Assembly (NCBI RefSeq): GCF_026262505.1
Contig: NC_067203.1
Span: forward strand, 2,852,001-2,916,000
Origin: Trichomonas vaginalis G3
Lineage: Eukaryota > Parabasalia > Trichomonadida > Trichomonadidae
DNA length: 64,000 bases
Direction of reading: 5' to 3'
The notes under the pieces were generated by a model that was given only the letters and a program-made list of their open reading frames with translations, did no database searches and was not told the DNA's origin. Position 1 is the first letter of the stretch. Each line of letters opens with the position of its first letter. Of the stretch, positions 10,783-62,453 are shown in pieces. Made by a program: the position numbers and the translations under genes.

Positions 10783-12394
10783 TTATATTTGTGCACCATG
10801 TGAAATAAGAAGTTCAGCGATTTCTTTACTATTATTTTCTGCTGTAATATGAAGGGCGGTTTCTCCATAATTATTTTTTTCATTGATATTTATTCCATGT
10901 GAAATAAGAAGTTCCGCTGTTTCTTTGCTATTATAACATGCTGCTTTATGAAGGACGGTTTGTCCATTATTATTTTTTTTCATTGATATTTATTCCATGT
11001 GAAATAAGAAGTTCCGCTGTTTCTTTGCTATTAAAAATTGCTGCTTCATGAAGAGCGGTTTCTCCATCATTATCTTTTTCATTGATATTTATTCCATGTG
11101 AAATAAGAAGTTCCGCTGTTTTTTTACAATCATTTCTTGTTGCATAATGAAGAGCGGTTTGTCCATTATTATCTTTTTCATTGATATTGGCACCATGTGA
11201 AATAAGAAATTCAGAAATTTCTTTACTATTATTTTCTGCTGTAATATGAAGGGCGGTTTCTCCATAATTATTTTTTTCATTGATATTTATTCCATGTGAA
11301 ATAAGAAGTTCCGCTGTTTCTTTGCTATTATAACATGCTGCTTTATGAAGGACGGTTTGTCCATTATTATTTTTTTCATTGATATTTATTCCATGTGAAA
11401 TAAGAAGTTCCGCTGTTTCTTTACTATGATTTCTTGCTGTAACATGAAGAGCTGTTTCTCAATCATTATTTTTTTCATTGATATTTGCTCCGTTTGATAG
11501 GAAATATTCACAAAGAGATGGAATATTAAACATCGCCGAATAAACAAAGCATTTGCCAATATCATTAGTTTGATCGAAATAAACTAAAAATGTTTCAAGA
11601 TTATTATATTTTTCGCAATATCTTAAATTGATCTTTATACTGTATTCATTCATCAAGAATGTAACAAAATCAATGTTGTGTGAAATAATTGCATTTTCCA
11701 TGCACCATCTATCTGGTTTTTGATATTTCAAACATTCACTCATTATCTCTTGATTTCCTCCTAAAAATGATAAGTCGAGACATTCTCGAGTTATTTCTGA
11801 GTTAAATTTCGTTCTCAATAACTTGAAACAATCAACTGCTCCGTGATAACAACATAATTCAAGTAATGAATATCTTTCGTAATGATGTGGATATAAATCG
11901 CTTTCAAATGCTTGATCTTTATCAAATCCTTCTCTTTCAGTGAATGCAATGAATGTTTCTATGTTATTATACGTAATTGCTCTGTGAATTGTATTTTTCG
12001 TTTGAATATCCAGATTTAGGGATTTAATTTGTTCGAAATTAGCAGATTTGTTTAATTTAATTCCATATTCTTTGTAAAACAGGAAATTTGAAATAAGTTC
12101 AACTCTGTTGATCTCATTGACATGATAATCATCAAATACTAGTTTCACAAGTAATAAGTATGATTTAGTATTGCGATTATTATACGGAATGATATTTAAA
12201 ATGTTTCGCATAATTGTTTGGGGAGAATATTTCTTTGAATCAATCAAGTTTGTTTTGATCATTTTGTAAATTGAGTTTAATTCTTCTTCTTTTTCCGTTT
12301 TTAACTGATACAATGCATTATATGAATCGATGTGATAATTATAGATACTTCGCAGTTCGCTGAATTTATTTGGATTAATGTCTTCGTCGGACAT
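10783..12394 (-). pseudogene. Trichomonad-type ankyrin repeat protein, interrupted
   Basis: From the ATG at 12394, about 300 residues form a helical N-terminal region of the DUF3447-like kind that precedes ankyrin repeats in trichomonad proteins (MSDEDINPNKFSELRSIYNY onward). About seven near-identical 33-residue ankyrin repeats follow (GETALHITAENNSKEIAELL, SHGINI). A TGA at 11459-11461 falls where sister repeats have a glycine codon (ND-stop-ETAL), so it is a nonsense change. A later frame shift sits at a run of eight T near 10975 where other repeats have seven. It is the only recognisable host-like gene here. The family is common in this group; the partner is unknown. Confidence 0.75.
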
Positions 12395-23503: not shown

Positions 23504-23531
23504 CGGGCTTCGCCCTCACCGCTTTGCGGTC
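23504..23531 (-). repeat. Double-hairpin insertion element, 28 bp
   Basis: On the minus strand: ACCGC-AAA-GCGGT, then GA, then GGGC-GAA-GCCC, then G, followed by TG. Same order and loop bases as the copies at 35390, 44620, 54459 and 62348. It lies in AT-rich intergenic DNA upstream of the hydrophobic protein gene. Confidence 0.75.
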
Positions 23532-30974: not shown

Positions 30975-31125
30975 ACTTTTTCATTAGATGTAAATCAGAC
31001 ATGAATGAGAACAGTCATGATATCATTAATGGTACCATTTATTTTAACATAAATGACCTAAATTTATGAATTTTCATGAATTTTATATATTAATGTTTTC
31101 ATTTATGATTTCGTAAATGTTTTCA

Positions 31126-31287: not shown

Positions 31288-31316
31288 GCCGCTTAGCGGC
31301 TCAGACCCTTTGGGTC
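31288..31316. repeat. Double hairpin, GC-rich
   Basis: GCCGC-TTA-GCGGC, spacer TCA, GACCC-TTT-GGGTC, followed by TCACG. Same two-stem architecture as the insertion family, abutting an AGATCT palindrome. Confidence 0.6.
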
Positions 31317-31399
31317 TCACGAATTTTCATGAATTTCCTTAAGATAGAAAAATAAAGTTAGTTTTATTTTTATTTATTTTTTTATTTTGTATAAAAGAT

Positions 31400-35222: not shown

Positions 35223-38200
35223 ATGTATCGGAAGTTGTCTAAGTTAGAACACTCGGAAATAAAACAACTTCTTACAGAAGCTAACATAGAAGTAGCAAAA
35301 CATTACGCAACAAACAAAAAAGCACTCGCTGACATCCTCAAAGACTACAATGGTGCAATAAGTTATGATAGAATTCATGAGTTCATAAAGCCAACGCGGC
35401 GAGGACGAAGTCCATGCAAGAGCATTTCCTTTAAATGACGTTGCTATTGACTTATATCATAGACGTTCAGTACCTCATGAAGTAAGAAGAGAAATGTTTG
35501 ACATAACAAATGCAAACGTTGGTGAAACAAGAAGAAGAGACGACACACTGAAACAACAGAGAAGAGAGATGTTTAAAAGTGCTATAGAACAAGTTCGCAA
35601 AGCTAACGATGTCATTCGTTCCATTGACGACAAACCAAAAGAAGGTGAGAGATGGTTAAAGAAAGATGAAGAGAATAGGAAGAGAAATGTGAAGTCAGGC
35701 AATAGACTCATTGACTTTAACATCGAAGCTTTAGATGAACCAAACAGAGACTACTTACACAAACATTTCGGTAAGGTTTTCATGAGACTCTTAGAGAAGA
35801 TTAAAATAAACTCCCAACAAAGATGGATGGTATGTTATAAACTTGGTGGAAAGTATGAATGTTCTACGTTAAACCTCAATAATATTGGAACATTACTACA
35901 TCAGCTCTTGAAGGAGAACTTTATATCAGAGATAGAAGCAAATGCTGCAGGTATTGTTGAAATGCACTATGACTTCTTCTTGACAAACATAAAGAATCTT
36001 ACCGAAATAAAGATGTATGATTTAACAGAATATGAAGGCTTAATGATGTCAGATGTAAAGAAAGGCAAACCAAAAAAGAGACCATATAGAGATGAAAGCA
36101 CACTGACAAATGACCAGAAAGCCATTTTGGAAGTTCTTAAGCAAACAGGAAACCCAGCACTTATAGAAAGCTTTTGGAAAGATAATGGTGAAAAGAAGTT
36201 TTATAAGAAGAGAAGCGGTCAGTTCTGGAAGTATCTTTGCACATTACCTATAAATCTTGAACGCTACCAAATCTTCAATGAACTGAACAAAAGAACTGCA
36301 ACACTTATGACAGAGGACAATTGTTTCGTTTATGCTTGCATTCAGGCTGGAGTAAATGAAGAAACTATTGACCACATGAGAGAAGTCATTCGTGTTAGAG
36401 ACTTTCCTCAAAGTAAAGTACAAGAAATTTCTGATGCAACAGGTATAGCATTTAATGTTACCATTGGTTACTTCAATGACTCAAGACATAATGAAATAAA
36501 GAGATACATACCAAAAGAATGTGAAACTGTTAGAACTATTGACTTACTTCTTGTTGAAGACCACTACATGCTAAATGAAAGATTACCAATGACAACATAT
36601 TTCGTCAGAAATTACAAAGAAATTCTCAAAGCTTGTGGTGGAATGAACATTGAGAAACAAATGAAGATTTATACAAAGAGAGAAGATAAATATGTAGTTC
36701 GTTATGATAGAACAACACCGTTATGGGATGTTATGAAAACATTGTGGGAGTGCAAATATTTCGAACCTATTTCTTATGGAGAACTTTTCACATATACGAC
36801 TGACTTATATAAACAGAACCTTGCACCATTTAAAGATTTGACATATGCTCCAAAGTATTGTGTACAACTGAAGAAGAAAGCCGAGTCAAAAGAAGTAAAT
36901 AAAAATAAGTGCAAGTTCATTCCTGAGCACGTTTTCTTTGCTGACTTTGAGTGCAGTACCGATGGCTTTCATAAAGCTTTTAACATATGTTATGACAGTG
37001 AAGATGGTTCAGTGAGTGAAAGCATATGGGGTCAGAACTGTGCAACAGAATTTTTGGAACGACTTCCTGACAAGAGTTTAATATATTTCCATAACCTCAG
37101 TTATGATATAAACTTCATCTTAAGACACATAACAGAAGTGAAAGGAACTCCCATCATTAAAGGTTCACGAACAATGCAAATAACTGGCTTATATAAAGGA
37201 AGGGCAATTATTATAAAAGACTCTTACAGTGTTATAAATAAGAAGCTTAAACTATTTCCTGCTATGTTTAACTTACAAACAGGACCGAAAGAAGTATTTC
37301 CTTACAACTACTACAGCAGTGTTTTGTTAGCAAATGACAACAGAACTGGTGTCATTTCTGAAGCATGTAAGTTTATCCGGGATGCAGATACATTCATGAA
37401 AAACATAGATTCCATCAAAGGTTGCAGAATAGATGAGAACCACTTCGACTTAGAAAAGTATAGCACATTTTATTGCAAACAAGATGTAAGAATTTTAAGA
37501 GAAGGTTTTGTTAAGTTCCGCAATGACATATTGAAAGAATTTGATTTAAACGTTTATGACTACGTTAGTATTTGTTCAATTGCTAACAAATTGTTTGAGA
37601 ACAGAGTGTACTTCCCGAATGGAAATTTATATGACCTCTCAAATAAACCAAGAGAATTTATTTCGAGATGCATTCAAGGTGGAAGATGTATGCTGTCAGA
37701 TAACATTAAACAAAAGAGCGAAAAGAAACTCATTGCTGACTTCGACGCTGTTTCATTATACCCTTCAGCAATTGCAAGACTCTATACTTTAGAAGGTATA
37801 CCGAAAGTATTGAAGGAAGAAATGTTAAGCACAGAGTATCTCATGAGACATTTATTCAATGACGACCAAAAGGAACCCATTGGTGAAAAGTTTATGTCTG
37901 GCTTCTTTGTTCTCATTAAGATAACAGAGATTGGAATACATAGACACTTTCCTTTAATAGTTTGTGACCCTGAACTAAATCCAGAACTTAACGTTCCCAG
38001 AAGTTCAAACACTTGCTGTTTAATGTATGTTGACCATATAACATTACAAGACCTCATAAAATATCAAGGTGTCAAATGTGAAGTGTTGCAAGGATACTAT
38101 TACGATGGAAACAGAGATATTAGAATAAGAGATGAAGTAAAGAAGTTGTTTGAGTTAAGGTTAAAGTATAAGAAAGAAGGAAATCCTTTGCAAGAAAATA

Positions 38201-39000: not shown

Positions 39001-39055
39001 GGTCATTTATTTTTGTCAGCAATGAGGTCATTCGTGATAAAAATAATGAGGTCAT

Positions 39056-42336: not shown

Positions 42337-44548
42337 TCACATATACGACTGACTTATATAAACAGAACCTTGCACCATTTAAAGATTTGACATATGCTCC
42401 AAAGTATTGTGTACAACTGAAGAAGAAAGCCGAGTCAAAAGAAGTAAATAAAAATAAGTGCAAGTTCATTCCTGAGCACGTTTTCTTTGCTGACTTTGAG
42501 TGTAGTACCGATGGCTTTCATAAAGCTTTTAACATATGTTACGACAGTGAAGATGGTTCAGTGAGTGAAAGCATTTGGGGTCAGAACTGTGCAACAGAAT
42601 TTTTGGAACGACTTCCTGACAAGAGTTTAATATATTTCCATAACCTCAGTTATGATATAAACTTCATCTTAAGACACATGACAGAAGTGAAAGGAACTCC
42701 CATCATTAAAGGTTCACGAACAATGCAAATAACTGGCTTATATAAAGGAAGGGCAATTATTATAAAAGACTCTTACAGTGTTATAAATAAGAAGCTTAAA
42801 CTATTTCCTGCTATGTTTAACTTACAAACAGGACCGAAAGAAGTATTTCCATATAACTACTACAGCAGTGTTTTGTTAGCAAATGACAACAGAACTGGTG
42901 TCATTTCTGAAGCATGTAAGTTTATCCGGGATGCAGATACATTCATGAAAAACATAGATTCCATCAAAGGTTGCAGAATAGATGAGAACCACTTCGACTT
43001 AGAAAAGTATAGCACATTTTATTGCAAACAAGATGTAAGAATTTTAAGAGAAGGTTTTGTTAAGTTCCGCAATGACATATTGAAAGAATTTGATTTAAAC
43101 GTTTATGACTACGTTAGTATTTGTTCAATTGCTAACAAATTATTTGAGAACAGAGTGTACTTCCCGAATGGAAATTTATATGACCTCTCAAATAAACCAA
43201 GAGAATTTATTTCGAGATGCATTCAAGGTGGAAGATGTATGCTGTCAGATAACATTAAACAAAAGAGCGAAAAGAAACTCATTGCTGACTTCGACGCTGT
43301 TTCATTATATCCATCAGCTATAGCAAGACTTTATACTTTAGAAGGAATTCCAAAGTATTGAAGGATGAGATGTTAAGCACAGAGTATCTCATGAGACATT
43401 TATTCGATGATGACCAAAAGGAACCCATTGGTGAAAAGTTTATGTCTGGCTTCTTTGTTCTCATTAAGATAACAGAGATTGGAATACATAGACACTTTCC
43501 TTTAATAGTTTGTGACCCTGAACTAAATCCAGAACTTAACGTTCCCAGAAGTTCAAACACTTGCTGTTTAATGTATGTTGACCATATAACATTACAAGAC
43601 CTCATAAAATATCAAGGTGTCAAATGTGAAGTGTTGCAAGGATACTATTACGATGGAAACAGAGATATTAGAATAAGAGATGAAGTAAAGAAGTTGTTTG
43701 AGTTAAGGTTAAAGTATAAGAAAGAAGGAAATCCTTTGCAAGAAAATATAAAGCTCATTCTGAACAGTATTTATGGCAAAACTATTCTATCTCCTATTGA
43801 GTCAAAAATAACCATAGTAAATGACAAAGATGCTATAAGATATGCCATCAGAAACTACAACCATATAGTGAAGTTCGAAGGTTTGGATGGTTCAGATAAA
43901 ACTATTTTCAAGCTAACGAAAAGCATTTGCAGACACTTTAACTTCTGTCCACTTGGTGTTAATATTCTATCTATGTCGAAGAGAATAATGTGTGAAGTAT
44001 TCTGTACTGCTGAGGACTTAGGAATGGACATCTTTTATAGCGACACCGACAGTATGCATCTCTACAATGAAGATATCCCTCGTTTAGCTGAAGAGTTTGA
44101 GAAACGTTATGGAAGAGTTCTCATTGGTAAAAACCTTGGTCAATTTCATAGCGACTTTGCAGAAATAACACCTGGAAAACAAAGTTTAGCATACAAGTCA
44201 ATATTTTGTGGAAAGAAGACTTACATAGACTTACTCACGAATGATTTAAATGAAGTTGCATTTCACTGCAGAATGAAAGGCGTGAAGCAAGATGTTATTG
44301 CTTTAACCGCTAATGAAATGTTTCCTGACTCTGTTCAGTGTTTCTATGATGAAGATAAAGGTTTAATGGTTCCGCAAGGAACATATGACAAAGACTCTGA
44401 GTTCAGTTTAATGAAACTTTACAAAGCACTTTATGACGGTCAAGAGATTGGATTTGACTTATGTAAGTCTGCTACACCTGCATTTGAAGAGAAGTTTAAC
44501 TTTTCTATTCAGACTAAGACTTCATTCATAAGAAAGCTTAAGTTCTGA
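42337..44548 (+). pseudogene. PolB (X), N-terminally truncated with one frameshift
   Basis: Identity with the W polymerase starts at CACATATACGACTGAC (42337) and runs to the stop at 44548, covering all exonuclease and polymerase motifs (ADFECST, FHNLSYDINF, FYCKQDV, DFDAVSLYPSAI, LNSIYGKT, YSDTDS). A one-base loss near 43356 splits the frame. Differs from W near the C-terminus (SATPAFEEKFNFSIQTKTSF versus SSSPCFAEKFNFSITTKTSF). Together with the missing 5' third it is not functional as assembled. Confidence 0.8.
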
Positions 44549-44619
44549 GGTCATTTATTTTTGTCAGCAATGAGGTCATTTATTTTTGTCAGCAATGAGG
44601 TCATTCGTGATAAAAATAA

Positions 44620-44643
44620 AACTAGCGGCAAGGGCGAAGCCCA
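44620..44643 (+). repeat. Double-hairpin insertion, 24 bp, X copy
   Basis: Between GTGATAAAAATAA and TGTGGTCATTTAC. W at the same place (39033-39058) reads GTGATAAAAATAA-TGAGGTCATTTAC with nothing inserted. Contains CTAGCGGC (first stem partly lost) and GGGC-GAA-GCCC, A. Confidence 0.85.
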
Positions 44644-44652
44644 TGTGGTCAT

Positions 44653-45510
44653 TTACAATACTGCGATGGTAGAGTTTAAGAGTTGTGCTTCAATGTAGAG
44701 ACAGTCCTTATGGTCTGGAGGTAAGAACACTGGGCAGTTATGGTCATGAGTGGAGAACATGTCTATCCAAAACTCACGATTGAAGCCAGTTAATTTATAG
44801 TATTTAGGGTTAGGAAGTGGTGAAGTTCTTGTATGACCAATGAACTCATTTTCAACTCCCTTACTTAAGTTTGAATATAATATAGCTTGCTTTCTATCCC
44901 AAATGCCAGGTGTTACAATCTTTGAAAATTCATTTTTCCTCGGAAGCATTGCATCATAATTGAAAACATTCTTGAAATCATCACTTGGTTCAGAGATTTG
45001 AAATCTTATACGTAATGGATTTTCTTTCTCTTTAGCGACTTCATTGAATGGTGAGAATATAACAAACTGACAGTCATGAGTTCCATCTTCATTTTCATTA
45101 AATTCATAATGAAAGTCTATAAGTTGTGGCTGACTACCTTCTTCTTTCAGTTGTGCAAGAAACTCACGTAAAGGCTGTAAAGTTTGTACTTCAATATTGA
45201 ACTTTTTCTCGAACATCTCATTAAATGAAATCATACATTGCAACAATGTTGTATCGTCTTTAAAGTATTTGTATATGTGAATGTTTTGGGCGCTTAAAGA
45301 CTGTTCGTCATTTTCTATCTCGACTTGAAGTATAAAGTCAACCTTTCTGAAAGCACGTGTTATATACATAGATGTTATGCCAATGTACTTCTCTTCATTT
45401 ATGTTCACAATCCAGTCTGTTGGAAACTTAAACGTTACTCTGTTCCCCTTTATTTTGACGTCAGGGTTTTCACTACTGAACGCAACAGATAAAGGTATTT
45501 GTCTATACAT
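44653..45510 (-). CDS. Probable virion structural protein, 285 residues
   Basis: Intact; ATG 45510. Beta-rich throughout: MYRQIPLSVAFSSENPDVKI, TDWIVNINEEKYIGITSMYI, then ILYSNLSKGVENEFIGHTRT followed by SPLPNPKYYKLTG. The last block resembles the (Y/H)SNLV...VG...LLR signature of Polinton accessory structural proteins (PY-like). It converges on PolB and is divergent from the small basic/acidic gene at 45807. Copies: W (truncated) and Y (one frameshift). Exact virion role is inferred. Confidence 0.55.
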   Translation of the reverse strand: MYRQIPLSVAFSSENPDVKIKGNRVTFKFPTDWIVNINEEKYIGITSMYITRAFRKVDFILQVEIENDEQSLSAQNIHIYKYFKDDTTLLQCMISFNEMFEKKFNIEVQTLQPLREFLAQLKEEGSQPQLIDFHYEFNENEDGTHDCQFVIFSPFNEVAKEKENPLRIRFQISEPSDDFKNVFNYDAMLPRKNEFSKIVTPGIWDRKQAILYSNLSKGVENEFIGHTRTSPLPNPKYYKLTGFNREFWIDMFSTHDHNCPVFLPPDHKDCLYIEAQLLNSTIAVL

Positions 45511-45534
45511 TTAATTCGGATAAAAATAAACCAT

Positions 45535-45807
45535 TTACTCTTTCTTCACTTCAGCTTCTTTAGCTTTTTGTTCTTCCTTTGCTTTTGCTTCTTCTCTAGC
45601 TTTCTTCGCCAGCAAACGTGGGTTCTTTTGTCTTCCAGCAGCTAATGCAGCTAGTTGTTTTTCACTAAGTTTTCTCTTTGGTCTCTCTGGCTTTTGTTCT
45701 TGTTTTTGTTCCTTCAGTTCGGATAAAATTTGCTCGCGAATTTCTTTCTTCAATGCTTCAACATCTATGACCCCTTGGGTCTTGTCCGTAGGGCTTGTCT
45801 GAGTCAT
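45535..45807 (-). CDS. Small highly charged helical protein, 90 residues
   Basis: The ATG at 45807 (MTQTSPTDKTQGVIDVEALK) is chosen; upstream in-frame codons overlap the leader shared with the divergent gene. Lys/Glu/Ala-rich helix throughout (RPKRKLSEKQLAALAAGRQK, AKKAREEA). The Y copy lacks one AKEEQ-type repeat. GACCC-AAG-GGGTC at the start codes for TQGV and is palindromic. Looks like a small nucleic-acid-binding or core protein; not recognised. Confidence 0.55.
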   Translation of the reverse strand: MTQTSPTDKTQGVIDVEALKKEIREQILSELKEQKQEQKPERPKRKLSEKQLAALAAGRQKNPRLLAKKAREEAKAKEEQKAKEAEVKKE

Positions 45808-45852
45808 TTGACTGCAGATAAAAAACAAAATTAAAACTTTAACCGATGTAAA

Positions 45853-46287
45853 ATGAGCTTGTCAAAATCAGAGCGAGAGTCTATTATATTAAATGACGCA
45901 AGAGGAATACAACATCCTTTCTATTACGTAAGTCAGAGTAAAGATGGTAAAATATATGTAAGAAAAAGAAAGGTTCCATTAGCGAATGCAGAAAGCGACA
46001 ACATTAAGGTGTATGGCAAGGGTGAAGTCCACGAAGCCCATATAAAACCTTCTATTCAAACTGAAAAGTCAATAGAACCAGAAGAAAAGAAGCCAGATGT
46101 CTTTCAATAACGAACCAAGAGCTTATTGCAAAGTTCGTGAATTTCATTGAAAAACAAACCGAGTCAAAGAACCCTGACCCACCAGTGAAAGAAGTTGAGA
46201 CAAAAGAGAATGTACAGTTCATTGAAAATGTCAAGAAACAACTTCCACCACGAATGCCAAGAAGAAGAGTGAGAATAATGAAGTAAA
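45853..46287 (+). pseudogene. Small basic protein, one frameshift (X copy)
   Basis: ATG 45853 (MSLSKSERESIILNDARGIQ). The frame stops at 46110; Y shows the continuation SITNQELIAKFVNFIEKQTE...PRRRVRIMK, here in another frame to 46287. X has lost one T of a TT at about 46099. The segment YGKGEVHEAHIK is encoded by a degenerate relative of the double-hairpin element. C-terminus Arg-rich. It sits between the charged protein and the capsid gene. Function unknown. Confidence 0.55.
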
Positions 46288-46313
46288 TAGATATTTTTAT
46301 CTGAAGTAAATAC

Positions 46314-47889
46314 ATGCAGAACGAACAGCTAAACGAATTTACTCCAGCAGAGCATATTCATCAGATTCGCTCATATTTCGATATCATAGACAATGCAGTT
46401 CAAATTGGTGACACTAATAGAAAATATTCTGACGCAAAGATTCCATCACAACCTGGAACTGCTAAAGATAACACATGGGTAACATTCAATCTCTCACCTC
46501 CTGGTGAAAATATGTTGGACCTTTACAATACATTCATTACGTATAAAATGGAAGGTCAATTTATTGTAGATAAAGAAATTGGTTCAGGTTCCAATAAAAC
46601 AAACCCACCAGGATTTTGGATTGGTTTCGATGACGCTTTCTATGCAGTTGCTGGATATCAAATCCTTGCAAATGGTCGTATCGTATATTCTCAAGACAAC
46701 GCAAGAGAAGAAGCATATATAACTTCAAACTCACAAACTACCGAACAAATAAAGAAAGTAGATGTTTTCTCAAAGACTCGACATGAAGATGTATGGAGTC
46801 ATTCGGGAACATGCAGAACAGGACAAATTGTTAGTGGTCCAATTACAGCAGGAAAATCATTTGATTTTAAGCTTCGTTTAAGAATTCCTGTTAGAAGATT
46901 CCTTCCATTAGAAGCTATTCGATTTATTCCAGCTTTTGCAGGAAACATTCAGCTTAAAGTAAAGTTCAGTAGCGACGCCTTACAATGCACATCTATATCT
47001 GTAAATGATATCATTGCTTTCAATCCAACTCTTAAAGTTGCATTTGCTTCAGATTCAAATCCACCGACAAATAAATTTGTTCCATGGAATGAACCATTCA
47101 CTATGATAACGAAGGCAGTAGAAGCTAGTGGAACAGTTACTATTACAACTGTAACCCAGCAACTATTTCGAACAAAGATGGATTTTAATGAATGTTTCAT
47201 TCATCCAAAGTCATTCTCTTTAGACCCTAACATTTATACAGAACTTGTAGAACATTATACAAACGAGGCTTTATGTTTTCCTGTTAAAGTTATGGATTGG
47301 ATTCCTATGGACGGTTCATTCTCAAAGAATACAGATAGTTCAAGTGCAACATTTACAGCAGCTTATACGCCTATTAATGTTAAAAGTATTTGGGCACTAT
47401 TTAGAAAGAAAGACAACTATTATGTTAATTTTGAGAACCCTAAGTTTAAATATCTTCAGCTTTCCATGGGAGCTTATGGAAATATGCCTGCAGAACCTGA
47501 AAAATCATATGGACCTGTATTTTATGAAATGGTTGCGAACGCTTGCAATACAAACAATGATATGATTGGATTTAATGAAGATGTTATGAGGTCATTGGTG
47601 GATGATGGTAGTGTGGAACATAAATGGGATAGCTATGACAACACACATTTCTTATGTGGTTTTCCAACAGAAGTGGACTTTTGCTTCCAGCAAGGTCAAA
47701 CATCTACTGCTCCAATAACATACAAATTGTCTGTTAAAGGACCTATTGAACTAGCAACTGAAAACGTACCAAAGCCACTTATTGGATTTATGAGGGATTG
47801 TTGCTTTGCCATTCAGGTAAGACAGTCAGGCATCCCATAATAATAAGATTAGATGACTATAACTTAGCACGGACGACAGTGAGGAATAA
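46314..47889 (+). pseudogene. Major capsid protein (X), frameshift in the last 20 codons
   Basis: 508 open codons from ATG 46314, against about 524 in the full gene. Double jelly-roll landmarks: PPGENMLDLYNTFITYKMEG, GFWIGFDDAFYAVAGYQILA, FDFKLRLRIPVRRFLPLEAI, FIPAFAGNIQLKVKFSS, ESFSLDP-like FSLDPNIYTELVEHYTNEAL, VFYEMVANACNTNNDM, and CCFAIQVRQSGIP. The Y sequence shows the tail continues IIKLDDYNLATDDSEE; X lost one C at about 47838 and another base near 47870, giving an early stop at 47840. With only the tail altered, the product might still fold. Main shell component of the Maverick particle. Confidence 0.8.
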
Positions 47890-47919
47890 AGGATGAACGT
47901 TTATTTTTAAAGCTTATAA

Positions 47920-48360
47920 ATGAGTTCTTCATCAAGCTCTCGCGAACCTTCACCATCTATGAAACAAACTTTACCAAACGATTATGGAGCACCTATTGAA
48001 TATTTCTTACGAGCTGCACAATGGCAAAGAGCAGTCTCACCAAGGTTAGGTGTTCCACCAGCTCCTGTCAAAAATAGCATTTGGTCAAGTCCTTATATAA
48101 AATATGGTCTCCCACTAGGTTTGCTAGCTACAGCAGGAGCAGTTATGATGTTGAAAAGAAATAAAGCAAATGTTGTAAATAATACTGAAGTAGCTGAAGT
48201 TAAACAAACTCCAACGCCTTCACAAGCAAAACCTTCAATGACTCCTGAACCTATGGAAGTACAAACTCCTGTTCAAAAGTCAACTCCTAAACCGACTCCA
48301 ACATTTAAACCAGAACCTACTCCTCAAATAAATCATAAAACTCCTGCGTTTCCTTACTGA
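47920..48360 (+). CDS. Pro-rich single-pass membrane protein, 146 residues
   Basis: ATG 47920 follows TTTATTTTTAAAGCTTATAA. N-terminus Ser-rich (MSSSSSSREPSPSMKQTLPN), then a conserved segment, then one membrane span (YIKYGLPLGLLATAGAVMML, about residues 46-65), a basic stop (KRNKAN) and a long Pro/Thr/Lys-rich tail (KPTPTFKPEPTPQINHKTPA). Y has a 10-residue longer tail (156). Adjacent to the capsid gene in X, Y and the Z fragment, so probably an inner or accessory virion membrane protein. Confidence 0.6.
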   Translation: MSSSSSSREPSPSMKQTLPNDYGAPIEYFLRAAQWQRAVSPRLGVPPAPVKNSIWSSPYIKYGLPLGLLATAGAVMMLKRNKANVVNNTEVAEVKQTPTPSQAKPSMTPEPMEVQTPVQKSTPKPTPTFKPEPTPQINHKTPAFPY

Positions 48361-48408
48361 AAAAATAACGTTATTTTTATTTAATATTAAAATTTTTATT
48401 TGATTGAA

Positions 48409-48645
48409 ATGACAAATAAAGTCACTGAAGCAATGAAACAAAAGTTTTTGGTAGAATACATTAAATCAGGAACTATTCCAGAAGGTTTTTACATTCATAC
48501 TATGAAGGATGGTAGAGTTCAGTTTAGAAAGATAAAGCAACCATTAGATAAAGAAGGAATTTTGAGAAAGATTAAACTTCATGAGGACAACATTGCTGAA
48601 CTTAAGAAGAAGTTAGAAGAGTTGGAGAAAGGAAGAGAGTTATAA
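48409..48645 (+). CDS. Small protein with coiled-coil end, 78 residues
   Basis: ATG 48409 follows TTTTTATTTGATTGAA. Sequence MTNKVTEAMKQKFLVEYIKS, a middle with GFYIHTMKDGRVQFRKIKQP, and a heptad-like end (IAELKKKLEELEKGREL). Identical in Y. The last codons overlap the inner edge of the TIR. The YIHTMKDGRVQFRK strand is similar in style to FYYVSQSKDGKIYVRKRK of the 45853 gene, so the two may be paralogues. Function unknown. Confidence 0.6.
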   Translation: MTNKVTEAMKQKFLVEYIKSGTIPEGFYIHTMKDGRVQFRKIKQPLDKEGILRKIKLHEDNIAELKKKLEELEKGREL

Positions 48646-49319
48646 AGCAATGAATTCAACAGGGTGAAAAAACAGGTGAAAAAAGAGGTGAGATCTCACC
48701 ACTTCACCTAAATTTATTTTTGTGCTATGTTTTCATACGTGTGAGGGTGGTGATATCATTAATTTTTAAGTTTATTTTTATATAAATGACGAAAACTATT
48801 GAGATAACAAACTACAACGGTCATGAGTTCAAGAATTTGTTCTTCGTTCCTCGTGAAAATACATTCTATCAGATACGAGGGAGAAAGGGTAAAGTTAGTT
48901 TGAGCGTTTATGAAGGAATGAAGAATGGAAAGTTTATACAAGCATACGATACAAACGGTAAACGTGTTTCATTAGCTTTGTCAAAACTTACTAACATTTA
49001 TTTTGACAGTGATTTTGACCTATATGAAGAAGAAAGTGAGTCAGAAGATTATGAGCTGTTATGTGAAGCACAGCAATGGGAGGAGTTGCAATACTTTTGT
49101 AAGTGAGAACGTTTATTTTTACATTAATGAAGTCGTTTGTGAAAACGTTTATTTTTTCATTAGTGAGGTGAAGTGGTTGGCGGCTTTATAAATATTTAAG
49201 GTTAAGTTAGTGTTGTCGTTTGTGTTGTAAAATATATGTTAATGGTTTTGTAAATATTTAAGGTTAAGTGGTGTACGGAGGCGCGCAGTGCCTCAGTACA
49301 CGACTTATGTATACTAACT
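48629..49319. repeat. Right terminal inverted repeat of Maverick X
   Basis: Pairs with W left TIR and Y left TIR. Contains the AGATCT palindrome (about 48661-48725), the TIR gene, two direct copies of AAATATTTAAGGTTAAG and, near the tip, a long GC-rich hairpin (GTGTAC, GAGGC ... GCCTC, GTACAC at about 49271-49301). Ends ATACTAACT. Confidence 0.85.
48786..49106 (+). CDS. TIR-encoded small protein, 106 residues
   Basis: Same gene as 22418-22744 (W) and 49980-50300 (Y); ATG after TTTATTTTTATATAA. Compared with W, differences cluster in the middle (YEGMKNGKFIQAYD versus YDNKHNGRYIKAID) and the acidic tail. X and Y copies are identical at protein level. Transcribed toward the element end. Confidence 0.7.
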   Translation: MTKTIEITNYNGHEFKNLFFVPRENTFYQIRGRKGKVSLSVYEGMKNGKFIQAYDTNGKRVSLALSKLTNIYFDSDFDLYEEESESEDYELLCEAQQWEELQYFCK

Positions 49320-49776
49320 AAGGTGTTGGAGTTTGTTTAACTTCAGCTACTTCAGTATTATTTACAACATTTGCTTTATTTCTTTTCAACATCATAACTG
49401 CTCCTGCTGTAGCTAGCAAACCTAGTGGGAGACCATATTTTATATAAGGACTTGACCAAATGCTATTTTTGACAGGAGCTGGTGGAACACCTAACCTTGG
49501 TGAGACTGCTCTTTGCCATTGTGCAGCTCGTAAGAAATATTCAATAGGTGCGCCATAATCGTTTGGTAAAGTTTGTTTCATAGATGGTGAAGGTTCACGA
49601 GAGCTTGATGAAGAACTCATTTATAAGCTTTAAAAATAAACGTTCATCCTTTATTCCTCACTGTCGTCCGTAGCTAAGTTATAGTCATCTAATTTTATTA
49701 TGGGGATGCCTGACTGTCTTACCTGAATGGCAAAGCAACAATCCCTCATAAATCCAATAAGTGGCTTTGGTACGTT
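49320..49776 (-). pseudogene. 457-bp fragment of a third Maverick (Z): Pro-rich protein start and capsid end
   Basis: Homologous to 50893-51352 of Y on the same strand. Contains the first 100 codons of the Pro-rich membrane protein (49620 down to 49320, cut at ...VKQTPTP) and the last ~35 capsid codons (about 49653-49776, cut at VPKPLIGF side). Both cuts are exact Maverick tips: X ends at 49319 and Y begins at 49777. It is the target DNA of two separate insertions. Confidence 0.8.
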
Positions 49777-50458
49777 AGTTAGTATGGGTTAGTCGTGTAC
49801 TGAGGCACTGCGCGCCTCCGTATACCACTTAACCTTAAATATTTACAAAACCATTAACGTATATTTTACAACACAAACGACAACACTAACTTAACATTAA
49901 ATATTTACAAAGCCGCCAACCACTTCACTTCACTAACGTTTTCACAAACGACTTCACTAATGTAAAAAAATAAACGTTCTCACTTACAAAAGTATTGCAG
50001 CTCCTCCCATTGCTGTGCTTCACATAACAGCTCATAATCTTCTGACTCACTTTCTTCTTCATATAGGTCAAAGTCACTGTCAAAATAAATGTTAGTAAGT
50101 TTTGACAAAGCTAATGAAACACGTTTACCGTTTGTATCGTATGCTTGTATAAACTTTCCATTCTTCATTCCTTCATAAACGCTCAAACTAACTTTACCCT
50201 TTCTCCCTCGTATCTGATAGAATGTATTTTCACGAGGAACGAAGAACAAATTCTTGAACTCATGACCGTTGTAGTTTGTTATCTCAATAGTTTTCGTCAT
50301 TTATATAAAAATAAACTTAAAAATTAATGATATCACCACCCTCACACGTATGAAAACATAGCACAAAAAATAAATTTAGGGTAGAAGGTTAGATCTAACC
50401 CGATATCTAACCTCTTTTTTCACCCTGTTGAATTCATTGCTTTATAACTCTCTTCCTT
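49777..50458. repeat. Terminal inverted repeat of Maverick Y
   Basis: Near-identical inverted copy of 48629-49319. The AGATCT palindrome (about 50366-50425) is of the GGGTAGAAGGTTAG type on its left arm but keeps the CACCCTG right flank of the X/W type, a mosaic. Confidence 0.85.
49980..50300 (-). CDS. TIR-encoded small protein, 106 residues (Y)
   Basis: Protein identical to the X copy at 48786-49106. Start motif TTTATTTTTATATAA before the ATG at 50300. Confidence 0.7.
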   Translation of the reverse strand: MTKTIEITNYNGHEFKNLFFVPRENTFYQIRGRKGKVSLSVYEGMKNGKFIQAYDTNGKRVSLALSKLTNIYFDSDFDLYEEESESEDYELLCEAQQWEELQYFCK

Positions 50459-50678
50459 TCTCCAACTCTTCTAACTTCTTCTTAAGTTCAGCAATGTTGT
50501 CCTCATGAAGTTTAATCTTTCTCAAAATTCCTTCTTTATCTAATGGTTGCTTTATCTTTCTAAACTGAACTCTACCATCCTTCATAGTATGAATGTAAAA
50601 ACCTTCTGGAATAGTTCCTGATTTAATGTATTCTACCAAAAACTTTTGTTTCATTGCTTCAGTGACTTTATTTGTCAT
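50442..50678 (-). CDS. Small protein with coiled-coil end, 78 residues (Y)
   Basis: Identical to the X protein at 48409-48645. The ATG at 50678 follows AATTTTTATTTGATTGAA. It lies between the TIR gene and the Pro-rich membrane gene. Confidence 0.6.
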   Translation of the reverse strand: MTNKVTEAMKQKFLVEYIKSGTIPEGFYIHTMKDGRVQFRKIKQPLDKEGILRKIKLHEDNIAELKKKLEELEKGREL

Positions 50679-50726
50679 TTCAATCAAATAAAAATTTTAA
50701 TATTAAATAAAAATAACGTTATTTTT

Positions 50727-51197
50727 TCAGTAAGGAAACGCAGGAGTTTTACGATTTATTTGAGGAGTAGGTTCTGGTTTAAATGTTGGAGTCGGTTTAG
50801 GAGTTGACTTTTGAACAGGAGTTTGTACTTCCATAGGTTCAGGAGTCATTGAAGGTTTTGTTTGTGAAGGCGTTGGTTTTGACGTTGGTTTTGGCGAAGG
50901 TGTTGGAGTTTGTTTAACTTCAGCTACTTCAGTATTATTTACAACATTTGCTTTATTTCTTTTCAACATCATAACTGCTCCTGCTGTAGCTAGCAAACCT
51001 AGTGGGAGACCATATTTTATATAAGGACTTGACCAAATGCTATTTTTGACAGGAGCTGGTGGAACACCTAACCTTGGTGAGACTGCTCTTTGCCATTGTG
51101 CAGCTCGTAAGAAATATTCAATAGGTGCGCCATAATCGTTTGGTAAAGTTTGTTTCATAGATGGTGAAGGTTCGCGAGAGCTTGATGAAGAACTCAT
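50727..51197 (-). CDS. Pro-rich single-pass membrane protein, 156 residues (Y)
   Basis: As 47920-48360 but with an extra SPKPTSKPTPSQ-type repeat in the Pro-rich tail. Same N-terminus and membrane span. Intact. The site corresponding to the X insertion in Z falls at its codon ~100 (ACACCTTCGCC). Confidence 0.6.
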   Translation of the reverse strand: MSSSSSSREPSPSMKQTLPNDYGAPIEYFLRAAQWQRAVSPRLGVPPAPVKNSIWSSPYIKYGLPLGLLATAGAVMMLKRNKANVVNNTEVAEVKQTPTPSPKPTSKPTPSQTKPSMTPEPMEVQTPVQKSTPKPTPTFKPEPTPQINRKTPAFPY

Positions 51198-51227
51198 TTA
51201 TAAGCTTTAAAAATAAACGTTCATCCT

Positions 51228-52799
51228 TTATTCCTCACTGTCGTCCGTGGCTAAGTTATAGTCATCTAATTTTATTATGGGGATGCCTGACTGTCTTACC
51301 TGAATGGCAAAGCAACAATCCCTCATAAATCCAATAAGTGGCTTTGGTACGTTTTCAGTTGCTAGTTCAATAGGTCCTTTAACAGACAATTTGTATGTTA
51401 TTGGAGCAGTAGATGTTTGACCTTGCTGGAAGCAAAAGTCCACTTCTGTTGGAAAACCACATAAGAAATGTGTGTTGTCATAGCTATCCCATTTATGTTC
51501 CACACTACCATCATCCACCAATGACCTCATAACATCTTCATTAAATCCAATCATATCATTGTTTGTATTGCAAGCGTTCGCAACCATTTCATAAAATACA
51601 GGTCCATATGATTTTTCAGGTTCTGCAGGCATATTTCCATAAGCTCCCATGGAAAGCTGAAGATATTTAAACTTAGGGTTCTCAAAAATTAACATAATAG
51701 TTGTCTTTCTTTCTAAATAGTGCCCAAATACTTTTAACATTAATAGGCGTATAAGCTGCTGTAAATGTTGCACTTGAACTATCTGTATTCTTTGAGAATG
51801 AACCGTCCATAGGAATCCAATCCATAACTTTAACAGGAAAACATAAAGCCTCGTTTGTATAATGTTCTACAAGTTCTGTATAAATGTTAGGGTCTAAAGA
51901 GAATGACTTTGGATGAATGAAACATTCATTAAAATCCATTTTGTTCGAATAGTTGCTGGGTTACAGTTGTAATAGTAACTGTTCCACTAGCTTCTACTGC
52001 CTTTGTTATCATAGTGAATTGTTCATTCCATGGAACAAATTTATTTGTCGGTGGATTTGAATCTGAAGCAAATGCAACTTTAAGAGTTGGTTGGAAAGCA
52101 ATGATATCATTTACAGATATCGATGTGCATTGTAAGGCGTCGCTACTGAACTTTACTTTAAGCTGAATGTTACCAGCAAATGCAGGAATAAATCTTATAG
52201 CTTCTAATGGTAAAAACTTTCTAACAGGAATTCTTAAACGAAGCTTAAAATCAAATGATTTTCCTGCTGTAATTGGACCACTAACAATTTGTCCTGTTCT
52301 GCATGTTCCGAATGACTCCATACATCTTCATGTCGGGTCTTTGAGAAAACATCTACTTTCTTTATTTGTTCGGTAGTTTGTGAGTTTGAAGTATATATGC
52401 TTCTTCTCTTGCGTTGTCTGAGAATATACGATACGACCATTTGCAAGGATTTGATATCCAGCAACTGCATAGAAAGCGTCATCGAAACCAATCCAAAATC
52501 CTGGTGGGTTTGTTTTATTGGAACCTGAACCAATTTTCTTTATCTACAATAAATTGACCTTCCATCTTATACGTAATGAATGTATTGTAAAGGTCCAACA
52601 TATTTTCACCAGGAGGTGAGAGATTGAATGTTACCCATGTGTTATCTTTAGCAGTTCCAGGTTGTGATGGAATCTTTGCGTCAGAATATTTTCTATTAGT
52701 GTCACCAATTTGAACTGCATTGTCTATGATATCGAAATATGAGCGAATCTGATGAATATGCTCTGCTGGAGTAAATTCGTTTAGCTGTTCGTTCTGCAT
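51228..52799 (-). pseudogene. Major capsid protein (Y), several frameshifts
   Basis: Same capsid as X, from ATG 52799 to the stop at 51228 (tail IIKLDDYNLATDDSEE present). Frame breaks near 52535, 52390, 52310, 51935 and 51690 leave pieces of 60-180 codons. Landmarks such as KLRLRIPVRKFLPLEAIRFI and FSLDPNIYTELVEHY are all present. The 3' part, intact here, is damaged in X. Confidence 0.8.
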
Positions 52800-52826
52800 G
52801 TATTTACTTCAGATAAAAATATCTAT

Positions 52827-53260
52827 TTACTTCATTATTCTCACTCTTCTTCTTGGAATTCGTGGTGGAAGTTGTTTCGTGACATTTTCAATGAACTGTA
52901 CATTCTCTTTTCTCTCAACTTCTTTCACTGGTGGGTCAGGGTTCTTTGACTCGGTTTGTTTTTCAATGAAATTCACGAACTTTGCAATAAGCTCTTGGTT
53001 CGTTATTGAAAGAACATCTGGCTTCTTTTCTTCTGGTTCTATTGACTTTTCAGTTTGAACAGAAGATTTTATATGGGCTTCGTGGACTTCACCCTTGCCA
53101 TACACCTTAATGTTGTCGCTTTCTGCATTCGCTAATGGAACCTTTCTTTTCTTACGTATATTTTACCATCTTTACTCTGACTACGTAATAGAAAGGATGT
53201 TGTATTCCTCTTTGCGTCATTTAATATAATAGACTCTCGCTCTGATTTTGACAAGCTCAT
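52827..53260 (-). pseudogene. Small basic protein, one frameshift (Y copy)
   Basis: Counterpart of 45853-46287. ATG 53260 (MSLSKSERESIILNDA). An A is missing from the A-run near 53155 (GTAAGAAAAG where X has one more A), shifting the frame. The C-terminal part, broken in X, is open here to PRRRVRIMK at 52827. Confidence 0.55.
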
Positions 53261-53307
53261 TTTACAATCGGTTAAAGTTTTTAATTTTGTTTTTTATCTG
53301 CAGTCAA

Positions 53308-53568
53308 ATGACTCAGACAAGCCCTACGGACAAGACCCAAGGGGTCATAGATGTTGAAGCATTGAAGAAAGAAATTCGCGAGCAAATTTTATCCGAACTG
53401 AAGGAACAAAAACAAGAACAAAAGCCAGAGAGACCAAAGAGAAAACTTAGTGAAAAACAACTTGCTGCATTAGCTGCTGGAAGACAAAAGAACCCAAGAC
53501 TACTGGCGAAAAAAGCTAGAGAAGAAGCTGAAGCAAAAGCTAAAGAAGCTGAAGTGAAGAAAGAGTAA
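53308..53568 (+). CDS. Small highly charged helical protein (Y), 86 residues
   Basis: Counterpart of 45535-45807; ATG 53308, MTQTSPTDKTQGVIDVEALK. A short deletion removes part of the Lys/Glu/Ala repeat (AREEAEAKAKEAEVKKE). The divergent partner is the small basic protein gene. Confidence 0.55.
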   Translation: MTQTSPTDKTQGVIDVEALKKEIREQILSELKEQKQEQKPERPKRKLSEKQLAALAAGRQKNPRLLAKKAREEAEAKAKEAEVKKE

Positions 53569-53592
53569 ATGGTTTATTTTTATTGGAACTAA

Positions 53593-54449
53593 ATGTATAG
53601 ACAAATACCTTTATCTGTTGCGTTCAGTAGTGAAAACCCTGACGTCAAAATAAAGGGGAACAGAGTAACGTTTAAGTTTCCAACAGACTGGATTGTGAAC
53701 ATAAATGAAGAGAAGTACATTGGCATAACATCTATGTATATAACACGTGCTTTCAGAAAGGTTGACTTTATACTTCAAGTCGAGATAGAAAATGACGAAC
53801 AGTCTTTAAGCGCCCAAAACATTCACATATACAAATACTTTAAAGACGATACAACATTGTTGCAATGTATGATTTCATTTAATGAGATGTTCGAGAAAAA
53901 GTTTAACATTGAAGTACAAACTTTACAGCCTTTACGTGAGTTTCTTGCACAACTGAAAGAAGAAGGTAGTCAGCCACAACTTATAGACTTTCATTATGAA
54001 TTTAATGAAAATGAAGATGGAACACATGACTGTCAGTTTGTTGTATTCTCACCATTCAATGAAGTCGCTAAAAGAAAGAAAATCCATTACGTATAAGATT
54101 TCAAATCTCTGAACCCAGTGAAGATTTCAAGAATGTTTTCAATTATGATGCAATGCTTCCGAGGAAAAATGAATTTTCAAAGATTGTAACACCTGGCATT
54201 TGGGATAGAAAGCAAGCTATATTATATTCAAACTTAAGTAAGGGAGTTGAAAATGAGTTCATTGGTCATACAAGAACTTCACCACTTCCTAACCCTAAAT
54301 ACTATAAATTAACTGGCTTCAATCGTGAGTTTTGGATAGACATGTTCTCCACTCATGACCATAACTGCCCAGTGTTCTTACCTCCAGACCATAAGGACTG
54401 TCTCTACATTGAAGCACAACTCTTAAACTCTACCATCGCAGTATTGTAA
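53593..54449 (+). pseudogene. Virion structural protein (Y), one frameshift
   Basis: Counterpart of the intact X gene 44653-45510. ATG 53593. A one-base loss in the A/G run near 54070 (GCTAAAAGAAAG versus GCTAAAGAGAAAG) ends the first frame at 54096; the remainder (MLPRKNEFSKIVTPGIWDRK onward) is open to 54449. It converges on PolB with a hairpin insertion between. Confidence 0.65.
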
Positions 54450-54458
54450 ATGACCACA

Positions 54459-54484
54459 TGGGCTTCGCCCTTGCCGCTAGCGGC
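54459..54484 (-). repeat. Double-hairpin insertion, 26 bp, Y copy
   Basis: Same site as 44620-44643 in X and empty in W. Here both stems are complete: GCCGC-TA-GCGGC, AA, GGGC-GAA-GCCC, A (minus strand), followed by TG. Confidence 0.85.
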
Positions 54485-54529
54485 TTATTTTATCACGAAT
54501 GACCTCATTGCTGACAAAAATAAATGACC

Positions 54530-57500: not shown

Positions 57501-58339
57501 TCATACATCTTTATTTCGGTAAGATTCTTTATGTTTGTCAAGAAGAAGTCATAGTGCATTTCAACAATACCTGCAGCATTTGCTTCTATCTCTGATATAA
57601 AGTTCTCCTTCAAGAGCTGATGTAGTAATGTTCCAATATTATTGAGGTTTAACGTAGAACATTCATACTTTCCACCAAGTTATAACATACCATCCATCTC
57701 TGTTGGGAGTTTATTTTAATTTTCTCTAAGAGTCTCATGAAAACCTTACCGAAATGTTTGTGTAAATATTCTCTGTTTGGTTCATCTAAAGCTTCGATGT
57801 TAAAGTCAATGAGTCTATTTGCCTGACTTCACATTTCTCTTCCTATTCTCTTCATCTTCTTTAACCATCTCTCACCTTCTTTTGGTTTGTCGTCAATGGA
57901 ACGAATGACATCGTTAGCTTTGCGAACTTGTTCTATAGCACTTTTAAACATCTCTCTTCTCTGTTGTTTCAGTGTGTCGTCTCTCTTCGTGTTTCACCAA
58001 CGTTTGCATTGTTATGTCAAACATTTCTTGACGAACATCATGCGAAAGAGCTTTACGAGTATGACCAACGTTCGCATTTGTTATGTCAAACATCTCTCTT
58101 CTTACTTCATGAGGTACTGAACGTCTATGATATAAGTCAATAGCAACGTCATTTAAAGGAAATGCTCTTGCATTTATGAACTCATGAATTCTATCATAAG
58201 TTATTTCACCATTGTAGTCATTGAGGATGTCAGCGAGTGCTTTTTTGTTTGTCGCGTAATGTTTTGCAACATCTATGTTAGCTTCTGTAAGAAGCTGTTT
58301 TATTTCCGAGTGTTCTAACTTAGACAACTTCCGATACAT
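54530..58339 (-). pseudogene. PolB (Y), many frameshifts
   Basis: Full-length counterpart of the W polymerase from ATG 58339 to the stop at 54530. Frame breaks near 57970, 57830, 57690, 57445, 57400, 57215, 56825, 55770, 55250 and 55000. All catalytic motifs can still be seen in pieces (ADFECST about 56575, DFDAVSLYPSA about 55775, YSDTDS region about 55030, the last split). No hairpin insertion at the W site, which gives the empty-site reference. Near the N-terminus a roughly 72-bp duplication repeats REMFDITNANVG / QEMFDITMQTLV with a linker TRKALSHDV. Confidence 0.8.
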
Positions 58340-61813: not shown

Positions 61814-62453
61814 GTTCTTACAATAAAAATAAAAAATATTTTTTTTTAAAAACTAACTTTATTTTTTATTTCGGGAAAATTCATGAAAATTCAACGGGTG
61901 AAAAAACAGGTGAGAAAACGGGTGAGATCTCACCTCTTCACCTAAAATATATTTTTGAGTGTAAATTCATGAGTTTTGGGTGAAAAAACATTTACGATGA
62001 AGTCTTGACAAAACATTTACGATGAAGTCATGACAAAACATTTACGAAGAAGTCTTGACAAAACATTTACGAAGAAGTCTTGACAAAACATTTACGAAGA
62101 AGTTTATTTCCTGGACTGTTGTCAAAATGTCGTGTTGTCACACTTTTTCAGAGAAGTTAAAATGACCGAGGCACATGGGCACATAGGCACACTTCAGTTC
62201 TTCAAAACATATACGATGAAGTCTATTTCCTGGACTGTTGTCAAAATGTCTTGTTGTCACACTTTTTCAGAGAAGTTAAAATGACCTGGTGACCTGGTGA
62301 CCTGGTGACACCTAAAAAACATCTACCCTAAACATTATTTTTGGTCATGGACTTCGTCCTCGCCGCTTTGCGTCTTTATGTTAAAATAAATGGTACCATT
62401 AATGATATCATGACTGTTCTCATTCATGTCTGATTTACATCTAATGAAAAAGT
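61814..62453. other. Intergenic repeats between integrase and the 304-residue gene
   Basis: AGATCT palindrome (about 61890-61956), five or so copies of TTGACAAAACATTTACGA (about 61985-62100), the right arm of the inverted repeat (62094-62203), a second direct partial copy of that arm (about 62213-62312), three tandem CCTGGTGA, and the hairpin insertion at 62348-62374. No gene. Confidence 0.7.
62348..62374 (-). repeat. Double-hairpin insertion, 27 bp, downstream of the Y integrase
   Basis: Minus strand: between ATTTTAACATAAA and TGACC. W at the same place (about 31041-31060) reads ATTTTAACATAAATGACC without it. Contains GC-AAA-GC, GGC, GA, GGAC-GAA-GTCC, A. Confidence 0.9.

Follow-up and report, generated by a model that had tools for sequence, protein, structure and literature searches.

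The window analysed here is a stretch of 64,000 nucleotides, part of a 27.7-Mb contig in the 180.85-Mb Trichomonas vaginalis genome. It holds genes of Maverick (Polinton) elements: PolB (DNA_pol_B_2), an rve integrase, an A32-type ATPase, KilA-N and T5orf172. The Maverick copies X and Y (partial), at 42337-56835, form large inverted repeats that are 95-100% complementary; a further copy is referred to as W. The window also includes 100 N and a tandem array of ~99-base units at 10775-11613, and at 9046-10012 it has a perfect inverted repeat of 348 bases whose arms are 271 bases apart. The second PolB lineage (16385-17608) has a cysteine-rich stretch, CKMCGKAF...CQLMCCYC, that by eye resembles an HNH-type insertion. 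Among the protein relatives, one Maverick-type PolB (P0005) is labelled as belonging to an Enterococcus lemanii MAG, and is probably trichomonad DNA that was binned with the bacterium.

Short GC-rich double hairpins occur at several places in this DNA. A preliminary description, made from the letters of the window, had listed five copies of one two-stem plan, and all five were recovered at their coordinates with that plan. The insert in the PolB site of W (35390..35414, plus strand) is a 25-bp damaged form of a 27-mer, with stem 1 two bases short, and is out of frame. The insert at a second site, siteT (23504..23531, minus strand), is of the kind we call type I and lies within a small Maverick ORF that is frameshifted in this copy. 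The spacer between PolB and the structural genes is filled in X (44620..44643, plus strand; stem 1 truncated) and in Y (54459..54484, minus strand; an intact double hairpin), and the fifth copy lies downstream of the integrase gene of Y (62348..62374, minus strand). Stem 1 is damaged at 35390, 44620 and 62348. Three of these sites had been reported to have empty counterparts in a sister Maverick, and all three pairs align exactly: PolB, filled in W and empty in Y (junction 58173..58174, minus strand); the PolB/structural spacer, filled in X and Y and empty in W (junction 39045..39046, plus strand); and the integrase-downstream site, filled in Y and empty in W (junction 31052..31053, plus strand).

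Beyond the five copies, the window holds a short double hairpin at 15594-15619 (plus strand), in frame in the second PolB lineage at a site, f, that has a long form in L204, L209 and L210, and another double hairpin at 31288-31317 (plus strand), in the spacer that follows the integrase gene of W, an empty relative of the site being in L017. Scrambled elements occupy a site named GGTGC at 46008-46040 (plus strand) and, as an inverted copy, at 53074-53106 (minus strand). Site d is empty in the window (junction 15463/15464, plus strand) and is filled by a 63-bp insert in L196, L197, L206 and others. A strict scan for adjacent GC-rich hairpin pairs passed two of the five copies noted before (23504 and 54459) and the new one at 15594, three in all for the window; 10 dinucleotide shuffles gave none. 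Folding as single-stranded DNA predicted two separate hairpins for each of the seven short units folded.

The two-hairpin plan of 24-28 bp given in the preliminary description is real, but it covers only part of a family that runs to two-hairpin forms of 24-30 bp and four-hairpin forms of 60-63 bp. In the short unit the two GC-rich hairpins are separated by 0-2 bases, often GA, and their loops measure about 2-4 bases. In the long unit two extra hairpins sit in the loop of stem 1. Over 318 kb, a search that presupposed no particular sequence turned up adjacent GC-rich hairpins of 14 kinds, some being variants of one another. In an indel screen of 158 stretches (356 kb), picked largely for their hairpins, 32 of 161 distinct inserts of 18-90 bases had at least two hairpins, and 29 of those had a GC fraction of at least 0.5; in an earlier screen two hairpins were seen in none of 65 inserts with GC below 0.45, and in 15 of the 33 whose GC was 0.55 or more. 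Across ten element types, 88 of 90 stem cells are paired, a figure that is partly circular because the types had been chosen as hairpins; more informative is the variety of pair 3 of stem 2 between types (A-T, G-C, T-A or C-G).

Exact filled and empty counterparts were found at 11 sites, written here with a caret at the insertion point. The 27-bp insert of the PolB pair (TTCATAA^ATGC) is identical to that of the siteT pair (TTTATGA^ATGAG). The 26-bp insert of the spacer pair (AAAAATA^ATGWGG) is identical to that of L009_210 (CAAAAATA^ATGTTT), and the 25-bp insert of a repeat-unit spacer (AAAAATAA^ATGACC) has a core of the spacer type, so that a 25/26-mer, GCCGCTAGCGGCAAGGGCGAAGCCC, is common to three spacer sites with empties at each. 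Because the spacer and repeat-unit sites are in repeats related to each other, they may be non-independent, possibly spread by repeat duplication. The integrase site (AACATAA^ATGACC) takes an insert of 27 or 62 bp, site a (TTTCATAA^ATGACAG) and site d (TAA^RTGATAAAAC) take 63 bp each, and the remaining inserts are of 24 bp at a site in an ORF (CAATTCAA^ACAACW), 29 bp at L009_268 (CACCCTCA^TGAATT) and 30 bp at L018 (CAGAAAAA^TATTG). The long unit is thus found at site a, site d and the integrase site, with empties at each.

An A precedes the insert at all 11 sites and TG follows it at nine (by chance, about 1e-9, rising to 5e-7 when a slide of one base is permitted), which defines a target step A^(A)TG. 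The form TAA^[AGCC...GYCC]^ATG describes the flanks best; placement is usually ambiguous by one base (A). Of the earlier reading of the target, ATAA or ATAAA followed by TG in constant orientation, the TG and the orientation hold at nine sites; two sites lack TG, and one of these is L018, whose orientation was assigned afterwards. That no target duplication is visible holds throughout, since at most one ambiguous base could be duplicated at any of the 11. One further locus, L005, which measures 57-67 bp and has AT-rich parts and a repeat of 4 bases, is off the A^(A)TG rule and was excluded from the 11.

The stem-2 core GAGGRCGAAGYCC has 852+842 = 1,694 matches in the 180.85-Mb genome and 0+0 with the reversed control. 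One hundred of these, all on one contig (97 outside the window and three inside), were listed and assigned to sites: PolB 43, siteT 41, GGTGC 10, integrase-downstream 5 and PolB spacer 1. No core copy outside Mavericks was found among these 100 of 1,694. Since all the listed copies fall at five Maverick sites, copy number comes mainly from Maverick amplification, and the independent insertions perhaps number a dozen or two, far from 1,694. The long-form word GGACTCTTTGAGTCCTGA occurs 251 times; the 20 loci examined comprise site d 11, site a 4, site f 3, the integrase site 1 and site e 1, Maverick residence not being claimed for site e. The long form was further found at siteT (L074) and the integrase site (L052). 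Site finding by regular expression, and by exact patterns for PolB, siteT and the integrase site, misses degenerate copies.

The PolB site was matched at 668 places, of which 100 were listed: 86 are filled and 14 exactly empty. The filled lengths are 27 bp in 78, 26 in 5, 25 in 2 and 28 in 1. The description of the PolB insertion as 25 bp long and gene-breaking is therefore true of the window copy but not as a rule, for the insert is 27 bp and in frame in 78 of the 86; the window copy and seven others are out of frame. No partial insert was seen among the 100 listed places, where lengths are 0 or 25-28 bases. For siteT, 867 places were matched, and the 100 listed divide into 14 empty, 75 type I, 8 with the PolB-type unit (one of them two bases short), 2 without hairpin 2 and 1 chimera; the flank trees described below omit siteT rows in which the pattern had matched falsely (two such strings). 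Type I has 472 exact copies, and all 100 listed have the siteT base. Its left flank at siteT is changed, reading TTAGATA instead of TTTATGA, and simple insertion does not explain this. The 27-mer followed by ATG and a base other than the C of PolB has 64 exact copies, of which 20 were examined: 16 are at siteT and four at PolB with an altered flank, so that within this sample the 27-mer has two sites. The integrase site has 87 places, classed by length as 27 bp in 63, 26 in 16, 21 in 1, 28 in 1 and empty in 6, the matched text being listed for 69 of them.

These alleles bear on whether the units move at all. One reading is that an old conserved Maverick hairpin is immobile and that empty sites are precise deletions, and it gains something from the orthologous positions of most copies and from losses of one hairpin. 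The outgroups contradict it. At PolB the 9-residue insert is absent from 4/4 aligned homologs (TVAG_498260, P0001, P0003 and P0004, the last two aligning loosely there; 4 of 19 homologs were aligned, over the first 80-105 residues). At site a 6/6 aligned homologs read VPFINDS and have no insert, three of them being only 38-52% identical in the search table; these were six of nine found, with P0046, P0049 and P0050 left out. The empty state is thus ancestral at both coding sites tested. The deletions that are observed leave remnants, with no partial form among the 100 listed PolB places, and an identical unit occurs at unrelated sites. We regard deletion as very improbable. Trees of the flanks gave 9 changes for the right and 4 for the left flank at PolB (59 rows), and 19 for the left and 12 for the right at siteT (64 rows), with alleles interleaved; the flanks are short and recombination is likely, so the trees were not used for counting gains and losses.

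The preliminary description had named two outcomes that would speak against mobility: empty forms that are deletions at a conserved hairpin, and copies confined to orthologous sites. Neither holds, given the ancestral empties at PolB (4/4) and site a (6/6), the 27-mer at both PolB and siteT and the 25/26-mer at three spacer sites, with exact empties present. From these presences and absences we infer movement, which was not observed as such, and we consider it likely that the units are non-autonomous, very small mobile elements living in T. vaginalis Mavericks. Counted against this are the small number of sites (about a dozen), the lack of core copies outside Mavericks among the 100 sampled, a sample biased towards hairpins, the two of 11 sites without TG, the sites in related repeats, the changed left flank of type I at siteT and the lack of a transposase linked to the units.

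No dedicated mover would be called for if, while Mavericks replicate or recombine, polymerase template switching or microhomology copying placed a hairpin unit from one site into another, with ends set by the base of the hairpin. One to three junction bases (A, ATG) are shared, as such copying would have it, and hairpins have been exchanged within one site: in L214 (site d), in L005 (7966 versus L006 and L008) and at C1:8103396 (integrase site), the integrase site alternating between GAGGACGAAGTCC and GGGGCATAGCCC and the L005 site between GACC-TTC-GGTC and a larger hairpin. The chimera and the half-losses at siteT fit as well, as do the allele pairs, all four combinations of siteT and PolB being present: empty/empty 1, empty/filled 6, type I/empty 9 and type I/filled 37, and further 27-mer/filled 5, half/filled 2 and chimera/filled 1 (listed places only, with the filled PolB list reaching ~21.84 Mb and 39 of 100 siteT places without a partner). 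Template switching is harder to reconcile with unit ends that are constant at many sites despite differing flanks, and with an orientation to A^(A)TG that is constant at 9/11 sites; we think it rather unlikely. The unit-like ends, fixed orientation, A^(A)TG target and absence of duplication together favour site-specific joining of a folded strand.

In genes, the canonical inserts respect the reading frame. The coding sites with exact empties are PolB, siteT, a, d and the 24-bp ORF site, with canonical lengths of 27, 27, 63, 63 and 24, a multiple of three at 5/5; at six sites taken as non-coding the inserts are of 25, 26, 26, 27, 29 and 30. The encoded peptides are usually KPQ-like and charged (KPQRGEDEVH and relatives), and the annotated protein TVAG_383450 carries the long form. 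Such whole-codon lengths and charged peptides would be expected if gene conversion spread the hairpins among Mavericks and a function, whether in mRNA stability or processing or through a useful peptide, preserved them. Empty alleles persist, however, and stem changes within a site mostly break pairs: at PolB 45 copies show 0 compensated and 2 broken changes, and at siteT 34 type I copies show 1 compensated (the chimera), 6 wobble and 3 broken. We read this as a fold that matters for moving, not for staying, and hold retention for function to be highly doubtful.

The unit lies in the sense strand at 10/10 sites whose ORFs point one way (chance 0.001; a post hoc observation): PolB, siteT, a, d, e, f, the 24-bp site, GGTGC, integrase-downstream and 31288. 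The count used overlapping or neighbouring ORFs and excluded sites with convergent or unclear ones (spacer, repeat-unit, L018, L009_210, L009_268, L010_2305, L009_4180 and L005); site a has a shorter ORF on the opposite strand as well. In one Maverick PolB and siteT lie on opposite strands, so that the unit goes with the gene rather than with the element's axis. Both observations would suit an RNA route, in which the unit is excised or copied with Maverick transcripts, joined by reverse splicing or ligation and returned via reverse transcription and recombination. Reverse transcriptase matches do occur, at seven places in the genome, none tied to the units, and such a route was suggested in PMC2800124 for elements of Allomyces. 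The sense bias may instead reflect selection on the inserted peptide or on a target that contains ATG; moreover, two of the ten ORFs (site e and GGTGC) are short, unverified ones, and the strand count passed over no fewer than eight other sites. We judge the RNA route unlikely. As a separate observation, five of the reverse transcriptase matches have the same score (C1:12934094, C1:13415077, C3:1459120, C3:16637632 and C6:18888), and four of these are within open frames 1,850-1,896 residues long; the five form a small retroelement-like gene family.

Joining of single-stranded DNA is ranked first among the mechanisms, with template switching and the RNA route close behind and deletion last. In DNA, C-GAA-G loops have exceptional stability, and single strands are exposed when PolB replicates from a protein primer. 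The unit would move as a folded single strand of Maverick DNA, and a trans-acting nickase would join it at A^(A)TG while Maverick DNA is single-stranded. It would enter as one piece at the step between A and (A)TG, always in one orientation relative to the target and with at most one base of possible duplication; amplification of the Maverick could then turn each insertion into hundreds of copies, and within genes inserts would persist where they add whole codons. A single-strand or HUH step is a possibility that we put forward tentatively, and that the nickase is HUH-like is a first guess, itself more doubtful than not. Insertion between A and T, oriented to the target, is a property of transposons of the IS200/IS605 type and of Helitrons.

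The genome was searched for enzymes of these kinds. Y1 transposase (PF01797) gave 0 genome matches, while 5 of 14 control genomes were positive. Matches to reverse transcriptase and to a Helitron-type Rep do exist, none of them tied to the units. The Helitron-type HUH Rep (PF14214, Helitron_like_N) had five genome matches, one in an open frame of 1,791 residues, and no control genome was positive. Two of the Helitron_like_N matches (C4:20041336-20041686 and C4:30700797-30700961) lie ~4 kb from 27-mer copies, at C4:20037394 (PolB site) and C4:30704548 (siteT), respectively; Helitron-type sequence may lie in or beside Mavericks.

The nearest known kind is the mitochondrial double-hairpin elements (DHE/RHE) of fungi and sponges. 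These share the short GC-rich tandem hairpins, the multi-hairpin forms and the occasional in-frame inserts in genes (PMC2800124); no target duplication is reported there for the Allomyces double-hairpin elements, and it was because duplications are lacking that an RNA route was suggested for them. The T. vaginalis units likewise have two adjacent GC-rich hairpins as the repeated unit. They differ in residence, lying on nuclear contigs of 20-40 Mb, with 100/100 listed core copies at Maverick sites, and so being nuclear and, as far as sampled, confined to Mavericks; in the one strict A^(A)TG step; and in having many exact empty sites within one genome. The GC clusters of yeast mitochondria (GC42), according to PMC4478555, are alike in presence and absence at homologous sites and in merger and shuffling of hairpins per site, but have putative AG or ACT target duplications, as against at most one base here. 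Rickettsia palindromic elements (RPE) are also palindromic inserts in frame within protein genes, according to PMC10969869, and in-frame insertion is seen here at five coding sites with empties. RPE are ~150 bp and bacterial, in contrast to units of 24-63 bp in a eukaryotic virus-like element, and this length sets the units apart from RPE; the long-form word GGACTCTTTGAGTCCTGAAGGTC had 0 exact matches in genome_contigs. Helitrons, too, lack duplication and have a hairpin near one end, and PMC6544945 gives their ends as 5' TC and 3' CTRR, with the hairpin shortly upstream of the 3' end. The units have no such TC and CTRR ends, as they start with (A)GNCG and finish with GNCC(A) or similar. Unlike Helitrons and IS200/IS605, hairpins fill the whole unit, in a genome without Y1 transposase. 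Nor do the units have the terminal inverted repeats and target duplication of two bases or more that are hallmarks of MITEs.

Other origins were tried and rejected. Rfam had 0 matches in the window at gathering scores, and for seven long-form loci at E up to 5 it gave three matches, none credible (under half of, or far below, the gathering score). The long-form junction strands CTGA and GAA resemble a hammerhead core; a hammerhead or other known ribozyme for the four-hairpin form was rejected, there being no such Rfam match. In viral_contigs, GCGGCGAGGACGAAGTCCATG had 0 matches and GGACTCTTTGAGTCCTGA one, in unrelated surroundings, and no relatives of the PolB were found there. A bacterial origin found no match through GGACTCTTTGAGTCCTGAAGGTC, as above, and a bacterial or viral one via GAGGGCGAAGCCCRTG yielded 57 matches, none with stem 1 by eye. 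No prior description of hairpin units in Trichomonas Mavericks appeared in the titles and abstracts of the open-licence papers searched, though an earlier one is possible.

We propose, with reserve, that the units represent a new class of mobile elements outside organelles: hairpin-only units of 24-63 bp, joined by a candidate activity at A^(A)TG in the sense strand of genes, that may parasitise or serve Mavericks and add whole-codon peptides. They would be unusually small candidate mobile elements, of two to four hairpins, and of a kind known mainly from mitochondria. The literature consulted leaves the movement of mitochondrial double-hairpin elements unsettled. T. vaginalis Mavericks offer a site present in hundreds of copies and in both allelic states, together with a defined target step and a listable set of candidate enzymes, so that the mechanism becomes testable, and in them the genes of a virus-like element gain short, charged, in-frame peptides in one step.
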